From positions 186,001-250,000 of the forward strand of contig CP126196.1 in assembly GCA_030272155.1 (NCBI GenBank): a DNA stretch of 64,000 bases, given 5' to 3'. The notes below the pieces were generated by a model. The model searched no databases and was not told the DNA's origin. It saw only the letters and a program-made list of their open reading frames with translations. This stretch comes from Tetradesmus obliquus. Taxonomy: Eukaryota; Chlorophyta; Chlorophyceae; Sphaeropleales; Scenedesmaceae. The translations under genes and the position numbers were made by a program. Below are positions 189-64,000 of this stretch, one piece after another; the stretch's first letter is position 1; each line of letters starts with the position of its first letter.

Positions 189-2316
189 CATGCACATGCA
201 CATTTGTGCAGTTGCAGTCACACAGCCCTGTGTTATGGCAGTACTGTGGGACAGCCATTGCCGCAATGCACCCCGCAGCACACTGTCCACCACCCATGCA
301 GCTGCAGCTGCTGAGCCGCCCCTCAGCACATTGTGCCCTGTTTTACAAACGCACCTGGTCTGGCAGCACAGCCACTGCCACGATTTTGCTGCCCTTGTAA
401 GGCAGCTTGACCGCCCTGAACTGGCCCGCCACCTCAGCCCACTTCACATCAGCCTGGTAGAAGCCCTTGCCCATCATGTCCACCTGCACACACATATAAC
501 AACCTTACTGTGATGGACAGTGCTGCATCCGCATAGCTGGACACAAGCTACAAACAAGCAGGTGAAGCAACATGTATGACATCGACCAGCATGGATTGTG
601 AAACAAACAGCCCAGGCCTCCTGCTGATGCATGGTGGGACTGTTGCACTGCCACCTGCCGCAAGATATGTGCGTTTCATTGTTGTTTTCTTGCAATTTGC
701 AGGCTCACCTGCACTTGCTTGTTGGCTGGCGTGGTGAAGGGCCGCTTGTAGGTGGAGCTGGGGCTGAACTGGTACTGCCACGCACCCTGCAGTCACAGCA
801 ACCAACCACGCAGCAGTGGAAAGCAGCGGGGCAACGCCGTGCGATTGCTACTGTCAGCAGCACAACTGCACTTCTAAGCGACGTAGGGGTTGCAAGTTTG
901 TGTGTGTGGAACGACTGCTACTGGCAGAGCAGGCAGCACAGAGCAACACCAACACATCTACAGCGTTGCAGGAGCCCTGGATGCAGCCAGGCGGGCCCTC
1001 CTGACCTCTGTCACTGCCACTGTTACACCATTTGCAACTACATGTTACATGACAACTACATGTTACTTGAAATCCTGCCGAGGCTCGCCTTGAAGTACAC
1101 CGCGTTGGTGATGACTGCCTTGAACTTGCTGTTGGCTGGCACTGCCGTCTTGATCAGGCTGGTATATGGCAAGTTAACAATACATAACATGTGGCAGACT
1201 GATGTCGAGCCTCACCTTGAAGTACACTGCATTGGTGACAACTGCCTTGAACTTGCTGTTGGCTGGCACTGCCGTCTTGATCAGGCCCCGAGTGGCCTTC
1301 ACAGCCCAGTCATTGATGGGCGCGGCGCTGCTCACAGCAGTAACAGGGGCCTGCAAGGGTGATAGAAAGAAGCAGGCTGAGGACATCATTGCTATCTCTT
1401 ACAGCGCTGCTGCAGTATGCGAGGTGGGTTACGCATGTGGCGCAGCGTGGGAGGCAGCTGCAGTTGCTACCGCAGCATCAGCATGCGCAGCAGGACGTAG
1501 CAGAGGTACCAGCATGTCTGCAGCAACTGCATCGACATCAGCAAGTCGCCAGTAGCAGCTGCAGGGCCCAGCATCCGCAGCAGCAGCAGCAGCTCAATGC
1601 AGCATGCTACTTGCCTGAAACAGCTTCAGCATACTGTCCGAGTAGGGCTTCAGGACATCAGTCTTGTTGGTCCAAACAGCATTTGCAATCGTCAGTTGCG
1701 TGCCGTTGCTGCTAGACTGTGCAGCAAGGGCTTTCATAAGAGCTGAAGCTTCACTGTTGAGTGCTGTCTCTGCTGTGTTGGCTGCTGCCAGTGTGTTGGG
1801 CAGCTGCTTCTGGGTGAGCACTGTCCATAGCTCCCGCTGTGTTGAAGAAAGTGGGCCTGCACGACCATTGGTGACAATTTCATGTATTTAGTACTGCAGC
1901 ACATGGTGTGCTGCATGCAAGTGATGCTGGGTGTTGCATTGGTCAGGAGCAGGGTGGTGCAGCAACACATGCAGGCTGGCTTCTGCTGCTGGTCACTCCT
2001 GCTAGCAGACGTCGTCCGCGAAGGACTCGCCGGGTCAATTGAACGTGATGTACAGCATGCACCCACCTGCCCCATTCAGCGCAAGGATCAGAGCTATGTA
2101 GGCAGAAAGTGGAGAGATGAACAGGCCCCCAGCTGTTCCTGCTCCTAGCTTAGCTAAAGCACTAAATAGATTGAGACCAAACACAGCAGACGCTGGTATT
2201 GACATTTCCACGTGCAAATGCTTGAAGACGCCAGTTCTAGGCCGTGCCGAAAGCAAAAGCGGGGCGAGCAGGCACAGGATAAATGAATGCGAGGCGATCC
2301 TGAACTTTTGCCTCAT
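1..2316 (-). CDS. Serpin-family protease inhibitor, 3' end outside window
   Basis: Exons (minus): 2316-2067, 1820-1615, 1350-1216, 786-709, 483-355 and 60 to beyond base 1. All junctions keep frame. The N-terminus has a hydrophobic leader (FILCLLAPLLLSA), so it is probably secreted or lumenal. The first serpin block follows (FGLNLF then LFISPLSAYIALILALNGAG), then TIANAVW in exon 2 and PINDWAVKATRGLIKTAVP with TNAVYFK in exon 3. Exon 4 starts GAWQYQF, and exon 5 carries AVKLPYKGSKIVAVAVLPDQ (shutter and strand regions). The last visible exon starts KAYKLDAAAALAGIGLSRIL, which precedes the reactive-centre loop in serpins. The loop is off the window, so inhibitory activity and target protease cannot be judged. 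The ATG at 2316 is chosen because the longer frame has only a GTG upstream. Intron 2 appears to use a GC donor (CAG|GCAAGT). Family call is firm; function is inferred. Confidence 0.88.
1079..1158 (-). repeat. Partial copy of serpin exon 3 (3' edge) in the next intron
   Basis: About 80 bp nearly identical to 1206-1285, the 3' end of serpin exon 3 plus the first bases of its intron. The copy would encode LIKTAVPANSKFKAVITNAVYFK-like sequence with one conservative change (VVT to VIT). Its donor dinucleotide is GC where the real exon has GT. It lies 127 bp downstream of the original in gene direction. Including both would duplicate a structural element of the serpin fold, so this is probably a non-used or alternative exon edge. 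Confidence 0.8.
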
Positions 2317-2373
2317 AAACACTTTGAAAATAGGAAGACCGTTTCACCGGTGGTCAAGTTCATATAGCTGCTG

Positions 2374-2505
2374 TTAGCCCTCACCTTCCTGACGTAGGAC
2401 ACGAACCCGGGTGACTAAAGCAGGGTGTCTAAATTGACGCATCTTGGGTGCATCAAAGTAAACCCAGACAATATTGGTTGACGTCCAGATCATCACTAGC
2501 AGGCG
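2374..2505 (-). other. Exon-like open segment, membrane-type, unassigned
   Basis: On the minus strand an open stretch beginning after CAGCAG reads VLRLLVMIWTSTNIVWVYF and then DAPKMRQFRHPALVTRVRVLRQ. It runs into either a GTGAGG donor or a nearby stop. The hydrophobic helix followed by F-x-H-x-x-L-x-TRV vaguely recalls the C-terminal helix of the TMEM231 gene next door, but phases do not let it replace that gene's last exon. It could be a diverged relic or an unrelated exon. I assign no function. Confidence 0.25.
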
Positions 2506-3219
2506 GAGCACCTGCTGATTTACTGGGAGACCAGCACACCCGGTGGGCTGTAGGCCTGATGACTGCACTGCCTGCAGCCAGCTAACCAACAGGCAGGTTG
2601 TGTGCTCTTCTCACCGCTTTGGAACAGGCTCAGCTGTGCAAAAGCTTTTCATGAAGTGGGCGTGGGCACTCTTACACTGTGGCAGAGCATGCAGCTGTAG
2701 GGCCACTGCACAGCGATCAAATAGGTGAACTTCACCATGCGACATGCAGAAACCACCAGCAGATGGTGGTGAGCCAACATAACCATGCCTTAACGAGCAA
2801 AGAGTGCAACGCAGGAGTCGCCCATGAATTTGCCGGCCAATGCTTCACAAAGCATTGTCAGGATTTTAACACGTGTTGACTATCGAACTGCAAGGTGATG
2901 GCCAGCATTCAGCACCATGCAGGACAGCTGTGAACCTGCACACCAAACAAGCACACACAACCATGTCCCAGCCACCAATCAATGGCACAGAACTACTATT
3001 TTATCAGCAGCGCTGAGCACCCAGACATGCCCACAGCACTCTTGACTGCCCACAGGCGCTGCTGCCGCGACAACACAAAACATCCAGAATACGGGTATCC
3101 CAGTGCGCAAGCTGTTACTGTTACCAGCGCCTGACAGGCAAACTCTACTGGGACCCACCACCCAGCTCATCAGCTAAATCAGCAGCCATTGCACAGCCCA
3201 CACAGCAGCCGGCTTACAC
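2506..3219. other. Intergenic, nothing recognised
   Basis: Between the serpin start region and the TMEM231 3' flank I find no exon chain, RNA gene or repeat that I can support. Short open frames here lack splice context. Confidence 0.5.
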
Positions 3220-3500
3220 CCTCGGGCCAGTTTGGTTGCGCTGCTGCCACGGCTGCAGGTCTGCAATACCCTGCACCTCTTACACCCAGCCGCAACCAAC
3301 CAGGCTGCCATTGGTCAGTTGCGCTGCTGGCGCGGCTGCAGGTCTGCACTGCCCCTGCACCTCTAGCACCCAGCTGCAACCAATCAGGCTCCCATTGCTC
3401 AGTAGCGCTGCTGCCGCGGCTGCAGGTCTGCAATGCCTGCATTTTCGGCTCCCAGCAGCAACCAACCAGGGTGCAGTTGCTCAGTAGCGCTGCTTTTGCG
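3220..3500 (-). repeat. Tandem array copying the 3' end of the TMEM231 gene
   Basis: About four units of 82-85 bp. Landmark 'tcagt(a/t)gcgctgctg' starts near 3481, 3399 and 3315, with a more diverged unit near 3230. Each unit carries the coding end of the last TMEM231 exon (ADLQP, then RQQRY or similar), its TGA stop or a diverged form of it, and the start of the 3' flank (TTGGTTGC..TGGG). The functional stop is in the unit at 3481. The array therefore lies in the 3' untranslated or flanking DNA. Confidence 0.8.
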
Positions 3501-4037
3501 GCTGCAGGTCAGCAACCACGCGCGTCTCCAGCACCCTGTGCCCAAACACCAGCCGCTCCAGCCAGCGCAGCAGCCACCACACCGGCCACAGCGCGCACGC
3601 AAACTGCACCCAGCCCCACTTGAGCATCTCGCTGGTGCTGGGCCTGCAGTGCACACATATGGTGGGCAGCGCGGCAAACACTTTTGACACCTTGCACAGC
3701 ACGAGGCACAAGTGGCTGTGTTGCTAACTTGACAATGCTGGTAAAAAAACCCTGGTTTGGCCAGCAAGTCAGGTGTGCGAGACTGACACGGTTGAGCGGC
3801 ACACAACAAGCGTGCTGCAGGCTCCCTGCAAGGGGTCACCAGCTGCTGCCGTTATGCATCTGCCCTTACTGTTACAGCCAAGCGCTATGCTGCTACAAGA
3901 ATGCCTTGTCAAAAAGTGTGCTCAGCTGCGGAACGGCATTGCCTGTCTGAGCCAGTGCGCCTACCTGTACGAGTGCACCTGGTTGGGTGGGATCCTGATC
4001 TTCGCATCCACCACAAACTCCTGGCTGCTGCCCGCCT

Positions 4038-4076
<39 letters not shown>

Positions 4077-15446: not shown

Positions 15447-15560
15447 GCCTGTGGGGCTGCAGTTGGGCTGCTGCACAGTGGCGCTGCAATGCTGCCAGGC
15501 ATTGCCAGCTGGCGTGGCGCACTGCTCCAGCTGCGCACCACCTCAACAGTGGCCCTGCAG
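14331..15560. repeat. CTG-rich low-complexity block
   Basis: Dense (CTG)n and imperfect CTG/CAG runs, the longest near 15318-15352 and 15413-15446. Several frames on both strands stay open for 200-460 codons because the repeat lacks stops. The minus frame of 461 codons has Q, S, A and C runs and no recognisable domain. The block might be the 3' coding part or UTR of the MATH-domain gene that points into it, but no junction could be proven. Confidence 0.6.
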
Positions 15561-15871: not shown

Positions 15872-17574
15872 CTGATGACCAGGCTGTCATTCGCCAGGTA
15901 GCGCTTTGCGTGCTTCAGCAGCGTCGCTGACCGCACGAAGCAGGGGTACCCGGCCACCACGCCGCCGCCCTGTGCCAGCTGCAGGCTGGGCCCCTCGCGC
16001 AGCGGCCTGGATGAACGCAGCAGGTGGCGGCCACGCCCGGTCTGCAGCAGCAGCACAAATTCAGCAGCAGGTGTGTTGGCACAGCAGAGCGGTGTCAGAG
16101 ATTATGTGCTGCCGCATCAAAACGCAGCTGTGGCATGGCGTATTCTGTGCATGTTTGGGGCACGCCTGGTCCACCGCTGCCAGCTCGTACAGCATGGATG
16201 AAACGCTGTTGATGGGCATGCGGCATGTGGCTGCTGGAGTCTACTGACTAGAAAAGACAGAAAGCCCAACCCAAAACGCAGCATGTGTCTACTAGACTGT
16301 GTAGTACAGCAACTGCAAGCTAGGTTAGAAAATAGACGAATACACACACCTGGTCCACCACAGCCAGCTCATACAGTATGTGGTCGGCGCTGCTGCCAGC
16401 GCCGCCCGGCGTCGTCAGGAACAGCGACAGGTGCTGGCAGCAGTCTGCGGCCAGGCCTGCAGGGAACACCTCCAGCTGGAAGGCCTGCGCGCCTGCCGTG
16501 AAGGGCTCGCTGCGCAGGCAGGTGCCGGGGCCCAGCGCACGAGCCAGCGCGTACCTGTGCGTGCAGTGCGTTGCATTGCATGTGTGTGGCGTGCAGTTAT
16601 GTTTGTGTCACAAACCACCAGTGGTGAAGCACATGTGGGCTGTTTGTGCTGCATGACACTGCTTGCAGGGCTATCCGGCACTGCGCACTGCTGCTGCATG
16701 CATTGTGGACAGCTGCAAATCACTATAGCAGCTCAGGCTGAGTTGGTCTCACAAAATAACCGGTGCTGTGTGCACTGGACTACAGCAACTGTTGTGCCCA
16801 GTGAGGCCTCTGCTGTGAGGCCACTAGTACTGCTGGCTCACCCGCTGATGGTGTACTGGTGGCAACCGCCCACTGTGGTGAGCTGCCTGTAGCTGCTGGT
16901 GGCTGCCAAGCCAGGGTACCTGCAGCAGCAACAACAGCAGGTCGAGAAAACAGCAGCCGTGCCAGCAGGACCTGTCTGAGCCAGTGCTCGCTGTAAGCAG
17001 CTCTTTGCAGCAGCTGAGCTAGTATAAGGCTTGCGGCTGATTCTAGCAGCTGGCTGACTTGCAAGGCTGCAAAATATCTGCCTTTGGCTGAGTCTGATAC
17101 TGCAGCATGATGATAGATAGTATTGGGGTAGTGGCTGGGCCTGTTCAATCCCAGCCTGGCTGAGCGGGAAAGCTCCAAACAGGCACCAAGGACGCATTGC
17201 TCTAGCACACACCTCCAGGCTTTTATGCCGCTTTGTTTTGTCTGCTTCATCAGTGTTTCACTGTCAGAGACTGCTCCGCTGCTGCTGTCAGAGTCTGCGG
17301 CTGGTCCTGCTCTGTGTCTGCCGCTGCTTTTGATACGTGCTTGACAGGCACTGCTGGGCCTGCTCTGCCCTGCTGTTGCCTGTGTCACATGGTGACATGG
17401 CACAGGGCTGCAGCACTTTGCAGCTGGGATGGCTGCTGGCCGCAACAGGGTGACTGCATCTGCAGCTGATGTGTCTGCTGTAGCGCTGCTGACAGCCGGC
17501 TTTGCTGCTGCAACATCAGGTACTTCTGCTGTTCGCTCCTCCAGCGCAGCTTGCATTACTTCGTGCTCTGCCAT
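15872..17574 (-). CDS. MATH (TRAF-like) domain protein, C-terminus unresolved
   Basis: Exons (minus) 17574-17213, 16554-16350 and 16041-15872 join in frame. Exon 1 encodes a disordered acidic N-terminus from MAEHEVMQAALEERTAEVPD. The MATH fold follows: LRSEPFTAGAQAFQLEVFPA (strand pair typical of MATH), HLSLFLTTPGG, ILYELAVVDQ, then GYPCFVRSATLLKHAKRYLA and NDSLVIR. The last is the usual end of a MATH domain (..F..DDSL.IR). Such domains bind short peptides in receptor, protease or ubiquitin-ligase partners. The frame leaves exon 3 in phase 2 at a GTGGGT donor, and I could not identify the next exon with confidence. No BTB domain is visible. It is divergent from the two-helix membrane protein gene, 521 bp away. 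Confidence 0.75.
16159..16198 (-). repeat. Partial copy of the MATH exon 3' edge
   Basis: Bases 16165-16196 repeat 16349-16380, the 3' end of the second MATH exon (SSMLYELAAVDQ against ADHILYELAVVDQ). The copy ends in a GC dinucleotide where the true exon has a GT donor. It lies about 184 bp downstream in the following intron. Confidence 0.75.
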
Positions 17575-26660: not shown

Positions 26661-29262
26661 TCACACCATCTGCTCCACGTGGATGCGCTCCTCAGCCACG
26701 ATCAGCTGGTGCACCAGGCTCAGGTAGCCCAGCTTGTCAGGGCCCAGCAGGCCCAGCAGCTGCCCACTGACAGCCTCCCGGTCATCACCAGGCTCCAGCG
26801 ACTCCATGCGGCGGTACACGCTGCAAGCAGATGGCGAGTGGGGTGGGGTGGGGTGCAGCAGGGACAGGCAGCGGAGCTGTCAGAGCGGCGCTCGTCATGT
26901 GCAGCGAGCACCAGCAGCAGAGCGGTTTAGCAGCACCAGCAAAGAAGCTGAGCGACAGCAGCGTTGTTTGCGCCCTGCATCATGACAGCAGCCCATGCAG
27001 TGCCTCAGCGGCCGCCAGAACTGTGCCCGCGCCTGCCGTGCAGCAGCCGACGCCAGCAACAGCGCCGTCAAAGGCGCCGTCATGATGGCAGCCATCACAG
27101 CTTATCATCAAATTAAGCCGCACCTGAGGCTTAGGAAGGGCCCAGTGCCCAGTGCCTCCTCCAGCAGCAGCCGCAGCGCCTCCACCCTGGCAGCAGTTGC
27201 TGCGACATAACGCCAGTCAGCACACATCAACCAAGCCGCACCTCAGGAAGGGACCAGTGCCCAGGGCCTCCTCCAACAGCAGCCGCAGCGCCTCCACCCG
27301 TGCAGCCAGGCTGTCGCCCTCGCCCACAGGCAGCGACACCGGCTGCCCATCCAGCAGGAAGCGCCCGGCAACCACCTGCAGCGACGCGGCAGCAGCAGCA
27401 GCAGCAGCAACAACAGCAGCAGCGGTGGCGGCGCTCGACCGGTGGTGCTTCGTAGTTCAGTGCCCGTGTGCTAGCCCGTGTGGAAGTGATGCAGCTCAGC
27501 AAGCTGCCTCACTGCTTGGCATGCAAACTTGGCACGGCGCCTGTGCCAGCAACAATCTTGCCAGTACGCACTTGTAACCCTGACCCATGCATCAACAGTT
27601 AACGCACAGAACGGCACACTCACCATCGCCTGTGTGCTGTTGGCATCTTCGTCAGCATAGTCCTCCGACGTCTCCCTGCTCACGCCGCCGCCGCTGCCAC
27701 CACCACCCTCATCGCCACCAGCAGCAGCCGCATCCCCTGCTGCCCCATGCTCTGCAGCCAGCACCAGGTGCTGCATGTCTGCCATCATGGCAGCAAACTC
27801 CTCCTCAGCTTCCTGCTCCGCTGCTGCAGATTCCTGTGCCTCGTTGCCGCCGGCCTGCAGCGCAGGAGCTGCTGCTGCAGCAGCAGGGCCTGCAGGCACT
27901 GCCTGTTGGTTGCCACCCTGCTGTTGCGGATCCTCCGTGTTGATAACGTCTGCTGCTGAGGGCTGCTGCTGCTGCTGCTTGCCAATGCCGAGCTCTCCCA
28001 TCACCTGTGGCAGCCAGTACAGGAGCATTGGGACATGCCTTTTCACATGTTTACAGATGTAGGCCCCAGGGCAGAATTGAGCAGAGAACAGCGCACTAGA
28101 AGCATCATCAGCAGCAGCAGCATGTGGTGCGGCAGCACCTGTGAGTAGAACCAGACTGTAACATACATTGGCAGCATGCACAGCCACACCCTTATCGGCC
28201 TGCCAAGCACAATGAGCCTAACACACACATGCAGCCCCACAGTGGCACACTCCCGCTGCTCACATCCCACAGCACCCCTGCCACCCCACCTGCTGCCTGT
28301 TGCGTGCTGCTGCGGCCTTGACGTCCTGCCAGTGCTGCCGCTGCCACTCGCGCAGCTGCGCGTCGCGCGCCGCCTGCTCGGCCTGCAGCCTGGCCCGCCG
28401 CCGCTCCAGCGGGCTCAAGCCGGCTGCATCTGCTACATCCGCCTCATCTGCGTGCGTTCCAAAGTAAATCAAGGTGCATGACAGCCACGGCATAGGGCTG
28501 TGTTGGGTGGTGAGGATGGGTCGAGTTGGGGCGCCACCAGTGCAAAAGCGGGAGTGACAGCGCTGCTACTGCAAAATGCATAGGCGCGGCACTGCTGCGA
28601 GCTACATGCTGTGCCGCGCCAGCAATACATTGGCGGCGCGTATGATGTGCAAGTCTACTAAGAACGCCTTTGGCGACGGCGCACCTCTGCTGTGATCTAT
28701 GCTTGGTTGGCCTCTGCTGGGCTGCCTGTTGTACTGCTGCCGCTGCTGCTGCTCAGGATCAGGAACAGCTTGTCGCAGTGGCTGCTGCTGCTGCTGCTCA
28801 TCCTGCTGCTGGCTGTCCTCAGCGCCCAGGAATGCTGCGAGCCCTGGCCCCTGTGCTGCCAGCAGCTGCTGCTTGTTGCGCAGCGCTGCAGCCCGCATAT
28901 CCTCCCACACCTGCCGCCTGTAAACACACACATGATGCAGCTGTGACCAGGCAGTTGTGGTAGTAACACTTTGGAGGGTGCCAGGACCCAGTGGCAGCCA
29001 CCACTAACTCCTCATGCAGCAGACATGACCGCTTCCAGCAGCAGCAATTGTTTCTTTCAGGCCAGCCTGTAAGAGGTGTACCACCGTGGCCACCCTGGCG
29101 CAAGTGGCGGCCATTCTGGCCAGCATGCTGATGGCTGTTCATGATCTGCATAACACCCTGCGGCAGTTGCACTTTGTATGCAACCGTCACGAATCAGGTG
29201 CCACCTACCTTAGCTCGGCTGACAGCTCGTCACCAGCAGCAGCTGCACGCCGGCCACCAACC

Positions 29263-35500: not shown

Positions 35501-37399
35501 ATGGCAGCCGAGAGCAACCTAGAGCAGCACTTCATCCTGCGAGTGCAGAATGCTGAGCTGGCGAGCAAGCTGCGGGGCTGGCTGAGGGACCAGGCCACTG
35601 TAGATAATATCAGCCTCGTGTTTGACCAGTGTGAGTTGCCAGCTAGCTTGCCATATGGCTGTTGTTGCTGTGGCGCTGCCGTTGTGACTGCTTAAAGCAG
35701 CCCATGCAGCCTGCTGTAGGGGGCGTTGCTAGCCAGGCAACTTCAGACTCAGCAATGCAATGTGTATTGGCCGTCACATATGTTGCTGATGAGCACAGTC
35801 AGGCAGCAATGACCGCACAACTCATGGTACAGCACTTCTGTCCCGTTGTTCAGCACTGTCACCGCAGTTGCTCGGTGCGCAATGCCGGCTGTGTAAGCGT
35901 TTGAAAGCAGCAGCAGCGGTAAGGATGCACACACGTGCAGCGCCATTCGCCAGCACCTGCTAGCAAGCGTCCTGCAAAATGGCTTGCTGCGTGCACACTG
36001 CCAACAGCTGTTTGTGTTGCTGCCTTGCATGCGTGCAGGCGCCAACCCGCGCTTGGGTGCACTCACCTTGGATGGGGTGCAGCACAACGTTGTCCTGCAA
36101 GACCTGCCCACAGTAGTTGAATCCTACAAGACGCTGGATGACGCAAACCTGGTCAAGGTGGCAGACATAGGGCAGGTAAGCAGTGTGGCAGCTGCACTGC
36201 ACTGTTTGGTGCATAGCGCTCATGTGCAGAACATGTTGGTTGACTACAGCGGTGGTGCCGTGTGTTTGCAGGAGTTGTGTGTGTGTGTCGGGGCAGCTGT
36301 TGCTGCTCTTTGCGAGCCTCACACATGCATCACATGTGATACGACACAGAGCATCTTACGCCTGCAGGTGCTGCTGGTGATTAATACCGACTCACGGACT
36401 TGCCGCTGCCCTTCCGAAAGCCTCATACATGCATGGCTTGTGATACGGTATGATCCCACCCAAGTATTTGCGCTGCGGCTGTGCCTGCAGGTGCTGCTGG
36501 TGGTCGAACCCAAGATCAGCGACCAGCCGGTGCCTTCCGAGCGCCCATACATGCATCTTGTATGACAGGGCACACAACAAGATTAGCATGTGTCTTTGCT
36601 GCAAATGCCTGCAGGTGCTGGTGGTGGTCGACCCCCGAGCTCAGTAACCAGCCGGTGCCTTTAAAGCGCCCATACATGCATCTTGTATGATAGGACACAC
36701 AACAGCTTTTGCATGCATACTCGCTGCAATTGCCTGCAGGTGCTGGTGGTGGTCGACCCCGAGCTCGCAGACCAGCCGATGCCGCTTGAATGCCCCGACG
36801 GCGTCACGCCGCCGATGCGCAAGGCGCGCTCGCGCCACTTCCGGCCGCCTATCAACCTGCCCGCCGACATGATGCGCGACGCGGTCAATGACGTGATAGA
36901 GATGCTGAATGGCAGGTGAGGCTGCAGCAGGCGCGCTGATGGCACCCGCACCCTGGAGGAGGGCCGTTTGCTTCAAGAGACACCGGGATGACATGCTTGC
37001 TTGCTTGCTATGTAACACATTGCACACCTGGAGCATTATGCTTTCCGTGACTTCACAGCAGGGAGTGTGATGGCACCCTTGACAGCAGCTTGCTCATCAC
37101 TGCCGCCTCCTTAGCCAGCACCGTTACATGTGTTACAAATGTAACAAACGTAACGCAGGGCGCCTGACGGCTACAGCTTCCATGACGTGGAGGAGGAGTA
37201 TGTGGTGGACCCCATGTCAGGGGAGGGCCGCTGGCAGCAGGTCAAGCCAGGCAAGCAGCGAGCAGCAGCAGTGACAGCAGCAACAGCAGACGCAGGCGGC
37301 GGCAGCGGGCGGCAGCCGCGCGCGGCGAAGCGCAAGCCCAAGGCGGCTGGCAGCGATGACGAGGACGATTACATTGAGGGCATGACTGACAGCGATTGA
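35501..37399 (+). CDS. TAF7: TFIID subunit 7 (TAF7)
   Basis: Exons 35501-35630, 36039-36175, 36740-36915 and 37159-37399 join in phase to 227 aa plus TGA. The N-terminal TAFII55 domain reads LEQHFILRVQNAELASKLRG, then DNISLVFDQ, NPRLGALTLDGVQHNVVLQD and LPTVVESYKTLDDANLVKVA with DIGQ. The last matches the human order [27 protein letters not shown]. Exon 3 gives VLVVVDPELADQP and TPPMRKARSRHFRPPIN, the counterpart of human GITLPLKNVRKRRFRK. The C-terminus is basic then acidic (KRKPKAAGSDDEDDYIEGMT). TAF7 is a core TFIID subunit that contacts TAF1 and restrains its acetyltransferase. It is shorter than the human protein (349 aa), as is common in algae. Intron 2 holds three decoy copies of the exon 3 start. 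Confidence 0.9.
36364..36739 (+). repeat. Three tandem copies of the TAF7 exon 3 start with acceptors
   Basis: Units of about 122-125 bp begin with 'cctgcaggtgctg', with CTGCAG ending just before about 36369, 36491 and 36616. They lead to the true exon start at 36740. Each copy keeps CTGCAG and 20-65 nt resembling exon 3 (VLLVINTD, VLLVVEPKISDQPVPSERP, VLVVVDPRAQ). Copies 2 and 3 reach a stop within about 25 and 11 codons. Copy 1 stays open into copy 2 and then meets the same stop. Confidence 0.85.
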
Positions 37400-38776: not shown

Positions 38777-41454
38777 ATGAGCTTTCTAGGCCGGCTAGCG
38801 CTGGTGGCTGGCAGGGCGCTGTCTACGGGCCAAGTGCAGGTGCAGAGCCAGGTGTGTGCGAGGCAGCCTTACCCTACAGCGCCTGTTTCTGCAGCTAGCA
38901 GCGCAAGCAATGCAGGAGACAGTATTTTAAACCCAGAAAAGTTCTGCAAAAGGCTGGGCAGGCGGCCTGGGGCAGCGCTGCGTGTAGACAAGATCCTGCA
39001 CGGGCAGTGCCTAGGCTTCCAGTCACTGCCGTCAGCTGTGCTTCAATTCAGACTTTGTATGGTGCTTCGTGTATTTTAAAGCTGCGTTGGGGCAACTGGG
39101 TGCTGGGTTGACGCCTGATCTCGCGTCGTGGCGAACTGTGCACTAACGTGCCCTGTTTGCAGGTGCTGCCGGCAGCCAGCACTTTTGCAGCAAGTTGGCT
39201 GAAGAACAGCTACCACTCCAGCGCGTCTAGCTGGCTCAGTGCACCAGCAACTACTGCTGGAGCTGTCACAACGTGAGCAGCAGCAGCAACAGCAGCAGCT
39301 AGGCCACAAAGCACAGCGCAGGCCTAGCAGCTTCTCACAACGTTTATCCTTGCTGTGGATAGGCCCAGGCCAGCAGCTGCAGCATGCTCATTGCTGCTAT
39401 GGGGCCACAGGCGAAGCAGGCACATGCTATCCAACAGAGCAGCACCCGCAGGGCAGCTTGGAAGCATCAATAGCAAATCCAGCGGCAATTCCTCAACATA
39501 CCCTCAACATACGCAGCAGTTTTGACGTGCAGTGTTACTGACGTGCAGTGTTGCTGTCCAGCTTTGGGAAGGCAGCCAGCTGTAAGCAGCATAGGCAAAC
39601 GCACTGCAGGTGGCAGCCGTGTATCACCGGCTTGAAAACCCTACTGTAGTACACATACGGTGCTCCGGAGTTAACACAGGCTCAGCTCATTGCTGTCTAC
39701 AACTCATCTACAGCAGCTTCTGCACATAGCAGCTGCTGAAACACCCACCTTCTGTGGACGCCCTTCCTGGTGCCCCCTATCAAAGCCATAGTCCAGTTCA
39801 TGCACAGCTGTTGTATCCGGCGTTGACTGGCCTGCGCCCTTTCCTGCCTGTCCTGCTACCCCTTTGTTGATGCATGCAGTGCTGATGAGAAGAACGCACA
39901 CCTTGTTGACAAGGACATCTGGGATGAGGCATGGTGAGCAGCAGCTGCAGCGGCACATAGCAGTGTCCTGCAAGCAGCAGCGGCACAGCAGGAGCTGACA
40001 GCGGCAGTCTGTAGCCTTGTAAGGCCGAGCCGCAGTTGGACAGTATTTGGGCTCGCAGGGTACAGCAGCAGGGGCTGCGGCTGATGCAGCAGCCAATAAG
40101 CAGTTGCAGCAGCTTCTTTGCGGCTTTGTTGCTGCCGATGTTGCGGCGCACATCTCATAGCAGCGTGATGTGAAAGCTGCATGGCAGCCGCAGCAGAGGG
40201 CATAACAGTGGCCGCATGAATGAATGAATGAGCTACGCGTGGTGTGTTCACAGTCAACAGCCGCGTAAGTTAAGGAAAGGGACGTGTGTGGGGATGAGGA
40301 TACCTCATGCGCATCGACGCACCACCACTGCCGGTGCGCCGGGCCCACCTGGTCAGCACTATCCAACCAGTGCAGCCACTACTTGGTAGGTGTATGAGTG
40401 GACCATGTTTCTACTTCTACTTCTACCAAGTGGTGGCTGCACTGTGGTTGGATAGTGCTGACCATGTGGGCCCGGCGCACCAGCAGTGGTAGCTGCACTT
40501 AATGCTTGCACGTGCCTGCCACAGCACAACGTGCTTGCCTCAGCACAAGCAAAGTGTGGGTCTCATGCAGCAGCATGCAGCAGCAGCTACGTCAGCGTTG
40601 CTGTGTATGCAGCAATGCACGCCGTTGATTGAAGGGCATAACCACACTGCACACGCCATCCTGCAGCGAAGCACTTTGCAATCCACTTCGCAATCCAACC
40701 AAACATGCAGGGCGTACGAGCCACACCTTGACACAGCAGGCCCATCCAGGTGCCTCCTCTGCGTAACGTGCTGCCACCTGTGCTGACCTGCTGCTGCACA
40801 CCTGTAACCAATCTGTGTTTCAGGGCGTTTGAGCCGCGCTTTGGCACCGCAGACAACCCCATCCAGGTGCCGACGCTGCTTTACCCTGTACACACCCTGC
40901 AAACACGCTGGAAACAACCTTTGCACCATGTGTTTGCTGCATGCCGCAGGGCATACGAGCCGCGCTTTGGCACCGCGGACAACCCCATCCAGGTGCCTGC
41001 GCTGCTGGGTGAGCGCATCATCGGCGTGACCGACCCCGAGGACGACACGCTGGTCATTTGGGGCGTCATCAGGGAGGGCGAGCCGCCCAAGCAGCTGGTG
41101 GCGGGCGGCGAGTTCTTTGTGCTGAAGAAGGTGGAGCGCGTGGAGAAGGTGCGCACAGCTGTTGTTATCTGCTGCTTTTTTGGCGTTGTTTTTGTTGTCA
41201 ATCTGGCGTTGTGTGCTGGTTGTAGCTGTGGTGCAGCATGCTGGATGCAGCGCGAATAGGCGCGGCGGCTGTTCGATGTTGTTGATTGTGTGCAGCACCT
41301 GCGTAATGTGCAGCACTGCCGTAATGTGGTCTTTGGGGGCTGCTTCTGTTCCACCTCACAGCCACATCCATGTTGACAATGTGGTGTGATGTCGTCCCGT
41401 GCTGTGCAGGTTGGCGACAAGCTGGGAATCCCCCTCATGCCGCAAGTGGAGTGA
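38777..41454 (+). CDS. COX5B: Cytochrome c oxidase subunit 5b, mitochondrial
   Basis: Exons 38777-38851, 39163-39272, 40950-41148 and 41410-41454 join in phase to 142 aa plus TGA. The first two exons are a long, Ser/Ala/Arg-rich mitochondrial presequence (MSFLGRLALVAGRALSTGQV). The mature domain reads AYEPRFGTADNPIQVPALLG, ERIIGVTDPEDDTLVIWGVI and EGEPPKQLVAGGEFFVLKKV. It follows the COX5b order (..G..E.P..VPS...RI.G...E....VVW.W...G.......YF.L). COX5b faces the matrix side of complex IV. Two oddities: the paired zinc cysteines of animal and plant COX5b (CPxC) are absent, with no cysteine in the domain, and intron 2 is 1.7 kb. That intron holds a 70-bp inverted repeat and two copies of the exon 3 start. 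The missing cysteines leave some doubt about the name. Confidence 0.78.
40319..40495. repeat. Long near-perfect inverted repeat in COX5b intron 2
   Basis: The left arm 40319-40388 and right arm 40424-40495 pair with only a few mismatches and two small bulges over about 70 bp. The loop is 35 nt and pyrimidine-rich ('ctacttctacttctacc' at its right end). As RNA it would fold into one long hairpin. It could be a pre-miRNA/mirtron-like precursor, a siRNA source or a small inverted-repeat transposon. No flanking target duplication was noticed. Confidence 0.85.
40704..40949 (+). repeat. Two tandem copies of the COX5b exon 3 start with acceptors
   Basis: Units of about 120-126 bp: copy 1 begins near 40706 (AYEPHLDTAGPS, reaching a stop), copy 2 at 40824 (AFEPRFGTADNPIQVPTLL). 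Both follow a CAG acceptor. Copy 2 is exactly 126 bp upstream of the true exon start and its frame stays open into the true exon. Confidence 0.85.
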
Positions 41455-43760: not shown

Positions 43761-43761
43761 A

Positions 43762-46350: not shown

Positions 46351-49258
46351 CTAGTGCTTGCGGTTGTACACGTGCCGGTAGCCTGCAGTCTGCCCGCCCA
46401 CCATCAGCTTGCACTCGAGCACCAGCCGCCCCTCCTCATCTAGCTTGAACTCATCCACGCCGCGCCCCGCATGTGGGGCGCCCCACTCGTACTCGATCAC
46501 CACGCTGCCCCAGGGAGTCAGCCGTGCCACGTTGGTGCTGCGGCCTGCAGGAAGAAACAAAAAGCAAGAGTGTTGCCAGTCGCAGCCTTAGACCATGCAA
46601 CGTGTTACAGTGATGACACAAAACGGCATGAGACAGTACATGTGAGCGAACGAAGGAAACAGCAAGCCCCAGGCAGTGCGCAGCAGGGGTCAGGGAAGGG
46701 ACGAGGTTGTAGACACAAGTTGCAGCCTCAGGAGGGGTGGGCTGCTTGTCGCAACAATCGCTCCAAGACACAAAGGGAAGGCATCTAGCGACACTTCACC
46801 CGGCTCATGAGCTAATTGTTAGCAGTGAAACAGCTGCGCCCTGGCCATGTCACATGGCCCATGTGGGGACGAGCTCCAAGCAAGCCGCCATCACACATCA
46901 AGGGACCTTGGGCGGGGGGTCTCCTGGTCCAGCAATGCTTGAAGGTGCGCAGATTTGCTTTTTTCCTGTTAGACTGTCCATCTATACACATCACACGAGC
47001 AGCAGCGCCGCACCTCGCCGCAGGTCGCGCCGCCTGTGCTGGCAGGTAAGGTAAGGCGTCATCACACATCAGAGCTCAGGTAAGGCAAGGCGTCATCACA
47101 CATCACACCAGCAGCAGCCCTAAACTCTCAGGTGGTGGCGTGCCCTGCCCTGTAGCAAGCCTCAGCACAGCGCCGCACCTCGCCGCAGGTCGCGCCGCCT
47201 GTGCTGGCAGGGCTGGCCCAGCACGTATCGCTCGGTGATCTTGAACCAGCTGATGACGCTGAACACGCCAAACGCAAAGTGGCTGTCATCCAGGCTGAGC
47301 TTCATGCCCTTGATCAAGCGCACTGCGGTGCGCGTGATGCCGTTGAGGTGCACCAGCGCCACGGCCGCCTCCATGCTGTCACTGGCTGCGTTGTCCTGCA
47401 AGCACGTAGTGGCAGATTGCCACATAATTCAAAACACGACGCTACTGAGGTGGATCAGCGCCACGGCCGCCTCCATGCTGTCGCTGACTGCGTTGTCCTG
47501 CAATCACAAAAAAGTACAAAGCAGTTCTATAATGACGCTGTTGAGGTGGACCAGCGCCACGGCCGCCTCCATGCTGTCGCTGGCTGCGTTGTCCTGCAAG
47601 CAGAACAGTACAAAGCATTTCTGTATTGAAGCTGTTGAGGTGGATCAGCGCCACGGCCGCCTCCATGCTGTCGCTGGCTGCGTTGTCCTGCAAGCAACAA
47701 AGTGCAAAGCATTTCTATATTGACGCTGTTGAGGTGAGTCAGCGCCACGGCCGGCTCCATGCTGTCGCTGGCTGCGTTGTCCTGCAGGCACATAAGTGCA
47801 GATAATGCAAAACATGACGCTGTTGAGGTGGATCAGCGCCATGGCCGGCTCCATGCTGTCGCTGGCTGCGTTGTCCTGCAAGCAACATCGGAGGTATGGC
47901 AGCATCCAGTTGCCACTGCTGTGTACTGCAAGCCCTGTGCACAAAGTCGCAGCAAGCTGCTGCTGCTGCTGCTGCTGCCAAAGTCTGACATCACCAAATC
48001 AGCTGCAGCCTACCTGCATACGCTGGCTACAGGCGCTGCAAACGCTGCCGCTGCTGCCGCTGCTGTCGCTGCCTACGCTGCAGTGGTGGTGGCGCCAACA
48101 ACGCCCCTACACAGTCATGCTATGCCAATACACATGCCAATACAAACCGCAGCACCACGCACGGCTCCTGCACCAGCTGCCTCCTCCAGTATCACTAGGC
48201 ATGCCCTATCTGTGCCACTGCAGACGCTGCTGCTGGTAGTACCGTGCACTGCCAGCTCCCCCTTCACACCAAGGACTTCAATCGCTTCGCAACAATGTCA
48301 CCAGCTATCTCCTTCGCTGCTGCTGCTGCTGCTGCTGTGTCTGCATCGTTGCTGCAGCAGGGCCTCACCTTGATCCATGTGCCGCTCAAGTCTGGCAGCT
48401 TGGCTGGCTCAGCATCCACCAACTCCACCTGAGCATCCGCCTCCACCAGCTCAACGACGCTGCTGCTGCTGCTGCTGCTGCTCGTGCGGCGCTGCAGCAC
48501 CTGCAGGAGCAAGGGCAGTGGCTTCAGCGCACGCAAGCTTGAAAGAGACAGGCGGGTGCAGCAAGGCCAGCTATGATGCAACACTGCTTCAAACAACAGC
48601 TGACCACCGCTGAATGAGCAGTAGCAGCGGTGTGTAGCACAAAAATGCCGCTTGCTCCACAAGTGGAGCTGCATGAAGAAGCCAACTCGGTCAAAGAAGC
48701 TGGCGTACGTGGAATGCACTGAGGACGGCGATTGTATGCTGCACACAAGCAGCACATGCTACATGGGGCTGTGCCTGGCTGAGTCCAGCACGCTGAAAAT
48801 ATGCTGCCTAAAAAGCAGCATGCCAGCTGAGCAGTGGCACAACCATATAGGAGCAAATGGCGCACCCACTCCAGCCTGCTGCTTCCTACCTGGGACAGCA
48901 GCACCAGCAGCCAGGCACCTGCCACAGCTCCCGCGAGGTCCCACTGCGCTCTCAGTGCGGCTACTCCAGCTGCTGCTATCAAAAGCAGGGTCGCCAACAG
49001 CATCACCAGGCCACTGTTGAGAGCTGCGCTGCTGCTGGTTGGGTCTGTTGTTGGACTGCCTGCTTCTGACAGCGACGGCGACAGCGAGGTAGACTGAAAC
49101 GCATGCACAACTGCAGAGGATTTGGGGGTAGACTCTGGTCGCGGCCGGCTGCGATGTCGCGACTCCCCACTACTCCCCCTCAGCACTTTCCGAGCAACAT
49201 GAACGGCCACGGCAGCCCCTGCCAGGGCCAGAAAACGTGCAGGAATCGGAGAATTCAT
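46351..49258 (-). CDS. Membrane-anchored lipocalin/FABP-like domain protein
   Basis: Exons (minus) 49258-48890, 48500-48369, 47395-47179 and 46544-46351 sum to 304 codons including TAG, all in phase. Exon 1: basic N-terminus (MNSPIPARFLALAGAAVAVH), Ser/Pro-rich stretch, then a hydrophobic helix (LVMLLATLLLIAAAGVAALR) and a second one (AGAVAGAWLLVLLSQ). Exon 2 has poly-Ser then LPDLSGTWIK. Exons 3-4: DNAASDSMEAAVALVHLNGI, VRLIKGMKLSLDD, ITERYVLGQ, then ARLTPWGSVVIEYEWG, VDEFKLDEEGRLVLECKLMV and a terminal TAGYRHVYNRKH. The pattern SGTW.KD..ASDSM..., strands alternating with D/E-G turns and an end in Y..VY.R is that of small beta-barrel proteins related to fatty-acid-binding and lipocalin folds, common in algae. 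It probably binds a hydrophobic ligand at a membrane; the ligand is unknown. Confidence 0.72.
47003..47046 (-). repeat. Copy of the 3' edge of FABP-like exon 3
   Basis: Nearly identical to 47166-47211, the C-terminal edge of exon 3 (QHRRRDLRRG) with its GTGCGG donor. It lies about 165 bp downstream in the next intron. Between the two are two short repeats of 'ggtaaggcgtcatcacacat'. Confidence 0.8.
47400..47890 (-). repeat. Five tandem copies of the FABP-like exon 3 start
   Basis: Units of about 87-105 bp, landmark 'cgccacggcc' in copies near 47460, 47546, 47650, 47743 and 47835. They lie upstream of the real exon in gene direction. Each copies about 66 nt of the exon start (DNAASDSMEAAVALIHLNS) and keeps a TTGCAG- or CTGCAG-type acceptor. 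A stop follows shortly in the copies I read. Confidence 0.85.
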
Positions 49259-50115: not shown

Positions 50116-50118
50116 TCA

Positions 50119-50871: not shown

Positions 50872-51087
50872 TCATGGAACCCCGTCGTTTGACTAGCCGA
50901 TATCACTAGCACTGAATTTATTACGTACGTAGACAAGAGATTGCCAAATTCAACAGACCGGCTTGTTCTTTTGTATGATACAACGCACGGATGCACGATC
51001 CGCGCTTCAGCCTGTAAGCTGTCCTTGTTCGCAGGCAGCACCCGTGCAACGTCTCCAACGCTTCACGTCGCAGATGTAAAGGGAGAG

Positions 51088-59878: not shown

Positions 59879-59928
<50 letters not shown>

Positions 59929-61489
59929 CTCTGCCTGCTGCTGCCGCTGCAGCTCCTGGATGGACCCAACAATGTCCAACTGAGCCTCTTTGATCATCTC
60001 ATCACTGGGCATAGCAATACCCAGCGCAGCAGCAGCCTCAGGATCCACCTGGATGCCATATGCCACGGCCTGAGCCAGGGTTTTGCCCACATCTAAACCC
60101 TCCTCACGTGCCGTGTCCACCAGCTGCATCAGCTTGCCTTCGTCCAAATATAACGCCTGCTCAGATTCCCCAGGCGCCTCCTCATACTCCTCAAACTCCT
60201 CATCGCCGTCATTGTCATTGTCATATAACGCCCCGTCATCTTCCCCAGCATCTGCCGGCCAGCCGCCGCCAGGCTGGCCACTGCTGCTGCTGCTGCTGCT
60301 GCTGCTGCTATCTGCAACGCCCTGCTGCATCTCCTCGCCCCCTTCCACATCCAGCTCCACTATCCTGCCCCCAGGCAGACCACCCACCACACCAGCTGAC
60401 AGGCCCTGCACCAACGCCTGCTGCTGCGCTGACCGCTGCTTCTGCCACCAACGCTGCTGCTGCTGCTGCTGCTGCCGGCCAGGTGCTTGGTCCTCACTGC
60501 TGCCAGCAGCCGCCGCCTGCTGCTCACTGCCTGCAGCAGCAGCTGGCGCTGTAGCAGACTCCGCTGCCGCCGCCTCTTCCTGCTGCTGCTGCCGCTTGCC
60601 GGCTAGTGTGTAGGGCTTCTTGTATTTGCTGGGCAGCCTGTTCATGTCCACAAACTTGATCTGGTTGTTTTCAAATGCACGCTCAATTTCGGGGCGCAGC
60701 TTCAGCAGCGGGTCATCAGCAGGCGGCGGCGCAGGACCATACGCCTTCTGCTGCTGCTGCTGCTGGGGTGGAGGCCGCAATACAGCAGGCTGCTGCTGCT
60801 GCTGCTTTGCTGCAGTTGCAGCATCTGCCTTCTCCTCGTCTGCCTTGAGCAGCAGATCCACTGGATCAGCAGCGGCAGCGGCAGCAGCAGCAGCATCAAT
60901 CAGCTTCTTCAGCTGCTCTGGGTCCACCCCTGACTGCAGTGCTGCTTGGATTGCAGACAGCACTGAGGGCCCCGCCAGCTCAGCTTCAAGTGCAGCCTCC
61001 TCACTTGCTGCTGCTGCTGCCGCCGCTGCTGCTGCTGCCGAGGCTGAGGAGGGAGCAGCTTGCTGCTGCTGGGATGCGGCTGGCTGCTGCTGCTGCTGCT
61101 GCTGCTGCAGGCCGGCTGTACGTGGGCCGCCTGCCTGCGGCTGCCGCTGGCTCCAGAAGCTGCTGCTGCTGCTGCTGCTGCTGCTGGCAGCTGCTGGTGG
61201 GGGCGCTTCTGGAGGCAGCAGGTCATCCAGTGACAGCGGAAGTTCCTCAGCAGCAGCCGGCTGCTGCTGCTGCTGCTTTTGCTGAGCTGGGAAGCCAGCT
61301 CCTGCTGCTGCTGCTGCCTGGCCATCATCCGCCTCACTCCAGGGAAGCTCCACTGCCTCGCCTGTTGAGGCATCATTAAACCAATCCAACAGCGCTTGCG
61401 TGTCACCGTCCAGCTGCGGTGGCAACCCCGCACCGCTGCTGCTGCCGCTTGAAACAGACTCCTTGCTAGGGCCTTGCTGCTGCTGGGGT

Positions 61490-61529
<40 letters not shown>

Positions 61530-61619
61530 CTGCTGCTGCTGCTTCTGGATCATCTTCCAGCTCCAGCTTCCCCAGGTCCAGCAGCTCAGACAGCTCCAGC
61601 CCCGGTGAGTCGGCAGCCT

Positions 61620-61654
<35 letters not shown>

Positions 61655-62107
61655 CAACAACCAGGCACACGAGTGCTACAAGCATCTCAGCTCCCCCAGG
61701 TCCAGCAGCTCAGACAGCTCCAGCCCTGGTGAGTCAGCAGCCTGCAGCAGCAGCATCAGCAGCAGCGGCGGCGGCAGCAGCAGCAGCAGTCAACAATCAG
61801 GCACACGGTGTGCTACAAGCATCTCAGTTCCCGCAGGTCCAGCAGGTCAGACAGCTCTAGCCCCAGTGAGTCGGCAGCCTGCAGCAGCAGCCGCAGCAGC
61901 AGCAGCAGCAGTCAACAATCAGGCACACGGGTGCTACAAGCATCTCAGTTCCCCTAGGTCTAGCAGCTCAGACAGCTCCAGCCCTGGTGAGTCGGCAGCC
62001 TGCAGCAGCAGCAGCAGTCAACAATCACGCACACGGGTGCTACAAGCATCTCAGCTTCCCCAGGTCCACCAGCTCAGACAGCTCCAGCCCCGGTGAGTCG
62101 GCAGCCT

Positions 62108-62142
<35 letters not shown>

Positions 62143-62504
62143 CAACAACCAGGCACACGAGTGCTACAAGCATCTCAGCTCCCCCAGGTCCAGCAGCTCA
62201 GACAGCTCCAGCCCTGGTGAGTCAGCAGCCTGCAGCAGCAGCATCAGCAGCAGCGGCGGCGGCAGCAGCAGCAGCAGTCAACAATCAGGCACACGGTGTG
62301 CTACAAGCATCTCAGTTCCCGCAGGTCCAGCAGATCAGACAGCTCTAGCCCCAGTGAGTCGGCAGCCTGCAGCAGCAGCCGCAGCAGCAGCAGCCGCAGC
62401 AGTAGCAGCAGCAGTCAACAATCAGGCACACGGGTGCTACAAGCATCTCAGCTCCCCCAGGTCCAGCAGCTCAGACAGCTCCAGACCTGGTGAGTCGGCA
62501 GCCT

Positions 62505-62548
<44 letters not shown>

Positions 62549-62937: not shown

Positions 62938-62975
<38 letters not shown>

Positions 62976-63153
62976 ACTTTTTAGCAAACAGTGGACCCCG
63001 CTTGCCAGGCAGGCCAGACAGGAAAGAAGCCCTGGAGGTGGGGGCACTGCTAGGGAGAGGTGTGCTGCTGCTGCTGCTGCTGCTGTTTGGGGCTGCTTGG
63101 CGTGGCAGCTCCCATGGTGCTGCTGAGGGAGGGGGGCTGCTGGTGCGCTGGGC
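59605..63153 (-). CDS. Q/A/S-rich protein, 5' end outside or unresolved
   Basis: Two exons are clear (minus): 63153-62866 and 61617-59605, both phase 0, giving 766 C-terminal residues plus TGA. Further mini-exons lie to the right (63.3-64.0 kb) and the start is beyond the window. The CAG repeat is read in all three frames within one protein: Q8 runs, A10-15 runs and S10-18 runs. Islands of normal sequence are LPGKRGPLFAKKS, GLESLQDLISPEMARARLT, GLELSELLDLGKLELEDDPE, LLDWFNDASTGEAVELPWSE, LKLRPEIERAFENNQIKFVD and MNRLPSKYKKPYTLAGKR. Later islands are LMQLVDTAREEGLDVGKTLA, PSDEMIKEAQLDIVGSIQEL and EFIDVTATDVGLGKR. The spacing of conserved-looking islands between homopolymers suggests a real but disordered protein. 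I do not recognise the family. Confidence 0.6.
61565..62505 (-). repeat. Seven tandem copies of an exon start with CTG tract and acceptor
   Basis: The start of the long exon at 61617 (AADSPGLELSELLDLGKL) is repeated upstream in gene direction, with 'cagctcagacagctc' landmarks near 61707, 61842, 61967, 62070, 62194, 62327 and 62469. Each unit (103-143 bp) has a (CTG)n run ending in CTGCAG, then about 60 nt of exon-like sequence, then a TAG shortly after (AADSPGLELSELLDLGELRCL-stop in the units I read). Units at 61.6-61.8 and 62.1-62.3 kb share a GGCGGC interruption, so a larger block was duplicated later. Confidence 0.85.
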
Positions 63154-63289
63154 CTGGAAAGAAAGGGACAACAGCGGCAGCGGCAGCACCATGGGACAGC
63201 AATGAGTTGGCAAATGCACTATCAGCAGCATCAGAAAAGCAGCAGGTGGTGTACACTTGCGGCTGCCCATCTGCTGCCTGCCTGTGCAG

Positions 63290-64000
63290 TATACATGGTC
63301 AGGTGCACCGCAGCCGCCAGCAGCTCACCCAGCCTGCTGCCAGCATCTTCCTCCAGCGCCGTGGCCAACCCAATCTGCTGGTGCCCTCCCTCCCAAAACC
63401 CCAACACTCCAAGCCACACCAACCATCACCACACCTGCACCGCAGCCGCCAGCACCTCACCCAGCCTCCTGTTGACGCCTTCTCCCAGCGCCATGGTCAC
63501 CGCATTCCGTCTGTGCCCCGCCTCCCAAAACCCAATCCACATCACCACCGCACCTGCACCGCGGCTGCCAGCCCCTCGACCAGCCGCATGTAGGCCCAGC
63601 ACGCTGACAACCACTGGGCGGTGTGACATGCACGTTAGCTTCACATCTCACCACCGCACCTGCACCGCAGCCGCCAGCACCTCACCCAGCCGCTTGCCAG
63701 CATCTTCCTGCAGCGTCATGGCCAACCCAACCTGCTTGTGCCCTCTCTTTCAACACCCCAACACTCCAAGCCACATCATCACCACCGCACCTGCATCACA
63801 GCCGCCAGCACCTCACCCAGCCGCCTGCCAGCATCTTCCTCCAGCGCCATGGCCACCCCAACCTGCTTGTGCCCTCCCTTTCAACACCCCAGAACCCCAG
63901 AACCTTAAACCGGATCACCACCACACCTGCACCGCAGCCGCCAGCACCTCGCCTAGCTTCCTGTTGGCGTCCTCCCAGCGCGGTGGTCACCGCGATCTGC
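63290..64000 (-). repeat. Array of a 72-nt mini-exon, about six copies
   Basis: Units of 108-139 bp. The copies at 63660-63731 and 63791-63862 are complete: GCAG acceptor, 24 codons (VGVAMALEEDAGRRLGEVLA, ending AAVMQ or AAAVQ), GTGCGG donor, both ends phase 0. Copies near 63308, 63440, 63557 and 63936 are diverged (lost donor, altered frame or truncated). Phase 0-0 fits directly to the next exon at 63153. The encoded unit would be an amphipathic helix. The array reaches the window edge. Confidence 0.75.

Follow-up and report, generated by a model that had tools for sequence, protein, structure and literature searches.

The window, that is the whole stretch of 64,000 nucleotides of Tetradesmus obliquus DNA analysed here, carries genes predicted to encode a serpin, TMEM231, a MATH protein, a NEK kinase, TAF7, COX5b, a FABP-like protein and a Q/A/S-rich protein. 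Pfam matches above the cut-off were obtained for serpin, TM231, MATH, kinase and TAFII55_N; COX5B stayed below it (23.5 bits versus 31), and the Pfam search with the FABP-like gene gave no match. The preliminary description had reported copied exon edges beside these genes, and each of the places it named does have a copy, the MATH copy being weaker (Table 1). All the listed copies lie on the same strand, as had been stated. At TMEM231, the 84-bp array is present, but it sits at the gene's end and is not clearly a splice border. The reported order, in which 5′ copies lie upstream of the exon and 3′ ones downstream, is forced by geometry. In the Q/A/S-rich gene, a group of units recurs as a larger, nested repeat of about 486-488 bp (61559-62547).

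Table 1. Exon-edge copies and related features of the window (positions in the window)
Feature	Position	Strand	Remarks
Serpin 3′-edge copy, 71 bp	1089..1159	-	offset 127; 94% identical to exon edge; donor now GC
Serpin exon with original 3′ border	1216..1350	-	gene model; Pfam Serpin
TMEM231 84-bp tandem array	3235..3548	-	runs into last predicted exon 3481-3643; counted as intergenic
MATH 3′-edge copy (exon 16350-16554)	16166..16197	-	offset 184; 27/36, weaker; ends read by eye
NEK 3′-edge copy (exon 27242-27375)	27130..27186	-	offset 112
Second NEK exon 3′-edge copy (exon 32156-32335)	32013..32073	-	offset 143-145
TAF7 outer 5′-edge copy (exon 36740-36915)	36491..36534	+	offset 249
TAF7 inner 5′-edge copy	36615..36670	+	offset 125; small indels relative to exon
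COX5b 5′-edge copy (exon 40950-41148)	40824..40880	+	offset 126; same-phase AG|GT with exon
COX5b second 5′-edge copy	40711..40762	+	offset 239; small deletion
FABP-like gene exon, copied at both borders	47179..47395	-	gene model
FABP-like exon 5′-edge, five copies	47446..47875	-	47446-47497, 47533-47593, 47627-47687, 47721-47781, 47815-47875
FABP-like exon 3′-border copy	47003..47046	-	offset 165; identical over 33 bp exon + 11 bp intron
Q/A/S-rich gene, seven 5′-edge copies (exon 60829-61617)	61676..62502	-	
131-bp array, several predicted exon edges	63304..64000	-	cut by window end

The window was analysed together with 240 kb from elsewhere in the genome (304 kb in all; seven stretches). 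Gene models were predicted by a gene finder made for this analysis, after a first, unsupervised one had strayed into CAG repeats and been abandoned; the predicted genes have a median exon of 126 bp and a median intron of 230 bp. The gene finder made here called copies as exons. Array offsets were taken from an ungapped scan, which recovered short offsets of 65-93 bp; the lower limit of 93 bp obtained with BLAST is doubtful, as this program probably merges short offsets with the main diagonal. Intron similarity was judged with an anchored aligner, and a free-gap aligner was rejected (background identity.78). A set of 26 borders was picked by hand from the scan, alignment and survey lists. TMEM231 (last exon), MATH, the Q/A/S gene, 63304-64000, A9 27524, A9 28985, C3 26661, A1 19105, A1 22691 (letter and digit denote sampled stretches) and a few weaker survey matches were left out of it as gapped, repeat-rich, weak or unclear at the border; TAF7 is represented by the farther copy, since its nearer copy has indels.

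Copies of an exon edge with its splice site, lying within the adjoining intron, are real, both in the window and in the other genome samples. At a threshold of at least 24/36 identity, 81 of 698 predicted borders had a copy versus 1.2 expected, some arrays being counted twice. The ungapped scan gave a total of 53 arrays in 304 kb, 1 in stretch A7 and 5-15 in each other stretch; presence in 7/7 stretches (sparse in one) and the duplication itself are observed directly. The density in the window (12 arrays per 64 kb) is like that of the remaining sample (41 per 240 kb). The copies are head-to-tail, on the same strand and local, as in tandem repeats. By BLAST, 43 direct arrays were counted versus 2 near inverted ones in 304 kb, the latter number being too low because the inverted-repeat filter missed hairpins aligning through their centre (one was found later). 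Dispersed elements were rejected as a general source, since 35/36 genic units match nowhere else in the 304 kb and the remaining unit has one 40-bp match at 90%. Paralog fragments were likewise rejected: whole-genome searches with two genes, COX15 and a SERAC1-like one, gave local matches only, with no second haplotype or other copy.

Among the 44 arrays with an offset of at least 60, 28 were mixed exon/intron, versus 17.1 ± 3.2 under random placement. The random values for the other classes were 10.1 for intron-only (3 observed), 5.5 for exon-only (5) and 11.4 for intergenic arrays (8). A border was included in 26/30 genic arrays versus 17.5/30 by chance and, ignoring exons inside arrays, in 22/30 versus 11.0/30. 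These data agree with the earlier claim that tandem duplications straddle splice junctions. The density had also been called far above chance: the excess at borders is 1.5-2x random placement, but a visibility bias may lie behind much of it, as the exon part alone stays alignable. Straddling arrays would remain visible longer because pure-intron copies would decay past recognition sooner. A mutational process aimed at borders, as had been suggested, is thus probably not needed.

The copies are direct duplications straddling the border. Offsets fell between 94 and 165 bp in 24/33 mixed or exonic arrays, with a minimum of 94 bp; 4/8 intergenic arrays, the TMEM231 array among them, had offsets of 65-84. 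The filler between copies is homologous along its length to the intron beyond the outer copy (mean z 2.1 versus shuffled, combined 9.1, 19 arrays); three recent-looking arrays lacked clear homology of this kind (A3 2546, z 0.1; A1 19250, 0.9; C3 38295, -0.3). The intron part is therefore also homologous, but badly eroded: its anchored identity was.685 versus.913 for the exon edge (46 non-independent pairs), and unrelated introns gave.52-.53. Compared between copies, exon edges were alike at.92 and intron edges at.72. In several arrays the identical block falls short of the offset and consists of the exon edge with only a few intron bases. The duplications affect donor as well as acceptor borders; 16/26 borders in the hand-picked set are donors, and the proposed slippage at CTGCAG acceptors is accordingly not supported.

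An own AG, GT or GC was kept in 37/42 hand-picked copies, with a mean site score of 3.5 versus 5.8 in the exon. At the inner end, the opposite-type site scored on average -2.2 in the 21 donor-type copies versus -0.5 in random windows, and -0.8 versus 0.1 in the 21 acceptor-type copies; it reached 4.0 in 3/42 copies. The copies are half-exons, with their own splice site and a partner on average no better than chance. Cassette exons were rejected as a general explanation, the copies being mostly devoid of a second splice site. Same-phase AG|GT pairs had a mean of -1.5 in the right roles versus -0.9 when swapped, the right roles being better in 14/42 copies; duplication-born introns were consequently rejected as a general explanation. 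The COX5b copy is an exception, with a strong AG|GT pair (9.1) in either role.

The codon positions of the differences separate two kinds of arrays, labelled single- or multi-copy by hand after the pattern was seen. In 15 hand-picked single-copy arrays, differences from the exon were distributed 5/7/51 by codon position; a dead copy should have about.47 of its differences at third positions, a value that the observed 51/63 rejects (P 4e-8). These differences are as between two functional versions. Multi-copy arrays looked neutral, with 24/48 differences at third positions, and variation among copies within one array (15/14/23) was near neutral. When all 64 aligned copies are pooled, the poor ones among them, third positions take.44 of the differences (248/566), which is the neutral value. 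The duplications themselves look ordinary, but many of the spare edges have, unexpectedly, changed as working coding sequence does. In the single-copy arrays, the scatter of third-position divergence fits one divergence time (chi2 15.6, 14 df), spread ages being disfavoured only at P 0.057 in a weak test.

We tentatively favour, as the leading reading but with less than even confidence, ordinary tandem duplications straddling borders, in which single-copy edges were already diverged alleles joined by unequal exchange and multi-copy arrays were amplified later. Direct duplications, with units mostly of 94-165 bp, would by chance have spanned an exon border. Of the two edges, the one attached to the exon body would remain exon, while the other would be left within the intron as a half-exon whose single splice site usually has no partner, probably to be removed with the intron. 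Straddling arrays would dominate if only the exon edge and a few splice-signal bases stay recognisable. Where there is a single copy, its edge and that of the exon would have been diverged at joining; most simply, unequal exchange may have brought together two alleles from a very diverse or hybrid lineage. Arrays of several copies would have grown later by amplification and then drifted. The allelic step is conjectural, a second haplotype having been seen for neither of the two genes searched. Allele joining leaves the 94 bp offset minimum of the 33 mixed or exonic arrays unexplained.

The best surviving alternative, which we consider unlikely, is that selection preserves the half-exons in the introns, for example because they serve as decoy or regulatory splice sites or in truncated isoforms. 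The third-position excess of the hand-picked single-copy arrays, the retention of own splice sites and the likeness of exon but not intron edges are consistent with it. However, partner sites are on average below random, AG|GT pairs are no better than swapped ones and multi-copy arrays look neutral. Furthermore, an in-frame stop interrupts one copy (A1 21100-21162), and in another a stop lies just beyond the aligned block (A1 15539-15581). Inclusion would also split 4/5 conserved domains tested: the serpin, COX15, ClpP and GTP_EFTU proteins each give one Pfam stretch with copies excluded and break into 2-3 when copies are read as exons, while TAF7 stays one stretch. This test opposes inclusion only by the broken alignments, because total Pfam bits rise in 5/5 proteins with copies included. 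A stronger proposition is less likely still: at about a tenth of exon borders, selection would maintain a half-exon that has one live splice site and keeps to the amino-acid sequence of the exon, although it is unable to make up a full exon, and introns would thus contain a reserve of functional edges acting on splice-site choice.

Between these two in plausibility, and improbable, is the view that two diverged haplotypes or strains were assembled into a mosaic, the copies being false local duplications at joins. Single copies do differ from the exon like coding-exon alleles, with similar third-position divergence, and only one full copy of each of the two genes searched was found. Nevertheless, the shared fillers and near-neutral internal variation of multi-copy arrays point to ordinary tandem-array growth, as does the nested 486-488-bp repeat, and the offsets vary with no single clustering value. 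More doubtful still is a simple tandem duplication after which only the exon was constrained and the copy in the intron decayed neutrally. Filler homology supports duplication of the whole unit, and both the overall third-position share and the variation within one array fit decay. However, the exon identity of.91 predicts about.84 for the intron (simulation with an assumed indel rate), well above the.685 seen, and the chosen single-copy arrays reject it.

A mutational process recognising splice borders, for instance templated repair copying an exon edge beside an intronic GT or AG, appears very improbable. The identical blocks shorter than the offset and the border excess would suit it, but the fillers are homologous along their length, as from whole-unit duplication, the intergenic arrays are not far under the random number, and visibility bias predicts the same excess. 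Concerted evolution by gene conversion from the exon is scarcely credible: exchange seems present in multi-copy arrays (the nested repeat; mosaic copies at A1 22373), but in a toy simulation of conversion with the exon under selection (population 100, one parameter set) none of six rates combined eroded introns with differences at third positions.

Were about a tenth of exon borders to have such duplications, the genome would provide many natural tests of how the spliceosome distinguishes a real border from an almost identical one some 125 bp distant, as well as numerous potential intermediates in the gain of introns by tandem duplication. The arrays would be a record of extreme allelic diversity or hybridity if joined alleles explain the third-position pattern, whereas selection as its cause would mean that half-exons in introns are functional. 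At the least, the arrays are a warning that gene finders will call copies as exons.

Intron gain by tandem duplication has reportedly been treated by Rogers in 1989, Gao and Lynch in 2009 and Hellsten in 2011. Tandemly duplicated or mutually exclusive exons are a known class and resemble the present arrays in that exon sequence is repeated, in direct order, next to an exon present once; here, however, only one edge with one splice site is repeated. Introners are likewise recurrent sequences tied to splice sites in many genes, whereas the units here are locus-specific. In the available portion of PMC3443670, duplication of genomic sequence in tandem is an acknowledged way of gaining introns, and the likeness lies in intragenic tandem duplication with copied splice signals; that model requires a donor and an acceptor at matching places in the two copies, which the 42 copies here on average do not show, COX5b excepted. 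The closest parallel, in the passages available from PMC4974935, is the potato RdRp gene, in which an intron was gained via a tandem duplication crossing an intron-exon boundary and a cryptic donor created a new spliced intron with RNA-seq support. There too, a direct duplication spans an intron's 3′ end and the 5′ edge of the exon that follows, splice signals included; here, in contrast, new-intron sites are on average at chance, donor as well as acceptor borders are hit, and about a tenth of the borders examined are concerned. With these two precedents, the earlier view that no described class matches needs qualifying. A genome-wide class of exon-edge duplications was not named among the titles and abstract openings listed from the literature searched, which lay largely outside subscription journals. 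What the potato RdRp and intron-gain passages leave uncovered is the abundance of the duplications and their codon-position pattern.

A copy of an exon edge was present at each place named in the preliminary description, as seen when the arrays of the window were checked; at TMEM231 the array lies at the gene end and not at a clear splice border. The window (G000:C6:186001-250000, from a genome of 104.66 Mb in 17 contigs) was analyzed with 240 kb from two other contigs, 304 kb in all. The sequence is CAG-rich (GC 57%), which together with the genes present points to a green alga, and CAG/CTG repeats are very common across the window; unmasked, they draw the unsupervised gene finder in. Gene models are predictions from a finder trained unsupervised on all 304 kb, which gave 37 genes and 415 introns; exons have a median length of 126 bp and introns one of 230 bp. 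Nine of 10 predicted proteins or protein parts, read without the copies, had a Pfam match, COX5B below the cut-off; the FABP-like protein had none.

Direct tandem arrays numbered 43 by BLAST and 53 by ungapped scan over the 304 kb, and the scan returned zero matches in block-shuffled sequence. When 36 bp from either end of every usable exon were compared with 450 bp of adjoining sequence, 81 of 698 borders (exon edges with their splice sites) had a copy at an identity of at least 24/36, a figure in which some arrays appear twice, since copies are themselves predicted as exons by the gene finder; the controls gave 1.2 with other genes' introns and 1 with reversed edges. Border copying is not confined to one locality. 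The sampled stretch A7 was poor in arrays (0 by BLAST, 1 by ungapped scan), and a ClpP-like gene carries arrays at several borders, so that arrays cluster by gene. The EFTUD2/Snu114-like GTPase gene of stretch A3 encodes what we take, by homology, to be a splicing factor. These loci and further repeats are tabulated.

Repeats and array-bearing loci outside and inside the window (positions without a prefix are window positions)
Feature	Position	Details
Inverted repeat, hairpin- or MITE-like	arms 40324-40389 and 40423-40490	near-identical arms; intron upstream of COX5b exon; confirmed
34-bp inverted repeat	50118-50151 and 50839-50872	94%
Higher-order repeat, Q/A/S gene	61559-62547	units 106-137 bp; block repeated at ~486-488 bp, 95% identity
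ClpP-like gene (L006 and L007)	A1 19096-22994 (C1:1019096-1022994)	
EFTUD2/Snu114-like GTPase gene (L009)	A3 1-4000	four arrays by BLAST, among them one exon edge copied exactly twice over 54 bp
Tandem duplication, 597 bp, near-identical (L013)	A5 7107-8313	outside predicted genes

Of the 33 mixed or exonic arrays, 24 have an offset between copy and original of 94-165 bp and the other nine a longer one, so that none is below 94 bp; among the eight intergenic-class arrays four are below 94 bp, including that of TMEM231. Copies were 91% identical in the exon part and 68% at the intron edge, against a background of 52-53% between unrelated introns; introns taken from a single gene reach 53%. The intron between copies and that beyond the outermost copy are homologous end to end (combined z 9.1 versus shuffled sequence, 19 arrays), which indicates that whole units were duplicated. 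Among 42 chosen copies, 37 kept the AG or GT/GC of their own border; the opposite site was absent on average from their inner ends, and same-phase site pairs did no better than with roles swapped. Inner sites occur exceptionally at NEK 32013, TAF7 36491 and A1 22238, and a same-phase AG/GT pair in COX5b is a further exception. When copies were read as exons, total Pfam bits rose in all five proteins; the TAF7 domain remained whole, while those of serpin, COX15, ClpP and GTP_EFTU each broke into two to three stretches. The copies are best called half-exons.

A border lay inside a copy in 26 of 30 genic arrays versus 17.5 ± 2.4 by random placement, or in 22 versus 11.0 ± 2.6 if exons wholly within arrays were ignored. 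The 44 arrays of the ungapped scan with an offset of at least 60 bp comprised 28 mixed exon/intron (17.1 ± 3.2 at random), 3 intron-only (10.1), 8 intergenic (11.4) and 5 exon-only arrays (5.5); by our reading of the scan, three of the exon-only arrays are border arrays with a copy called as exon, and two of the intron-only arrays are copy-to-copy matches within a border array. Borders thus show a 1.5-2-fold excess, but short exons and introns account for much of the raw impression. A mutational cause is not needed for the excess: in known arrays the intron portions have decayed nearly to background identity, so equally old duplications lying wholly within introns would escape notice.

Dead copies would be expected to show an intron identity of ~.84 given.91 in exons (simulation) and ~44-48% of differences at third codon positions. 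Third positions held 75 of 111 differences at 26 chosen borders (one copy each). The 15 single-copy arrays contribute 51 of 63 (P 4e-8) and the 11 multi-copy arrays 24 of 48, the two groups differing at Fisher P 0.0009; these P values are only indicative because borders and split were hand-chosen after seeing the data. Over all 64 aligned copies, poor alignments included, the share was 248/566, and variation among copies within one array was 15/14/23 by codon position. Third-position divergence in single-copy arrays was.198, with scatter no greater than under one common divergence time.

Single-copy arrays hold two functional-looking, similarly diverged versions of a border next to each other. 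If the lineage is a hybrid or very diverse, unequal exchange that joined two alleles would give this pattern without selection on the copies, as would an assembly mosaic. Selection on the copies would also give the third-position pattern, but we found no general route of copy use. In a toy model, gene conversion from the exon, which would keep copies alike, did not yield the pattern. The nested repeat of the Q/A/S gene suggests that multi-copy arrays resemble ordinary later amplification.

That introns can be gained by tandem genomic duplication is accepted (PMC3443670). In potato RdRp an intron was created by duplication across an intron-exon boundary (PMC4974935). The kind of mutation is the same here; unlike the potato case, most of the present arrays show no sign of a new intron, and they are frequent.
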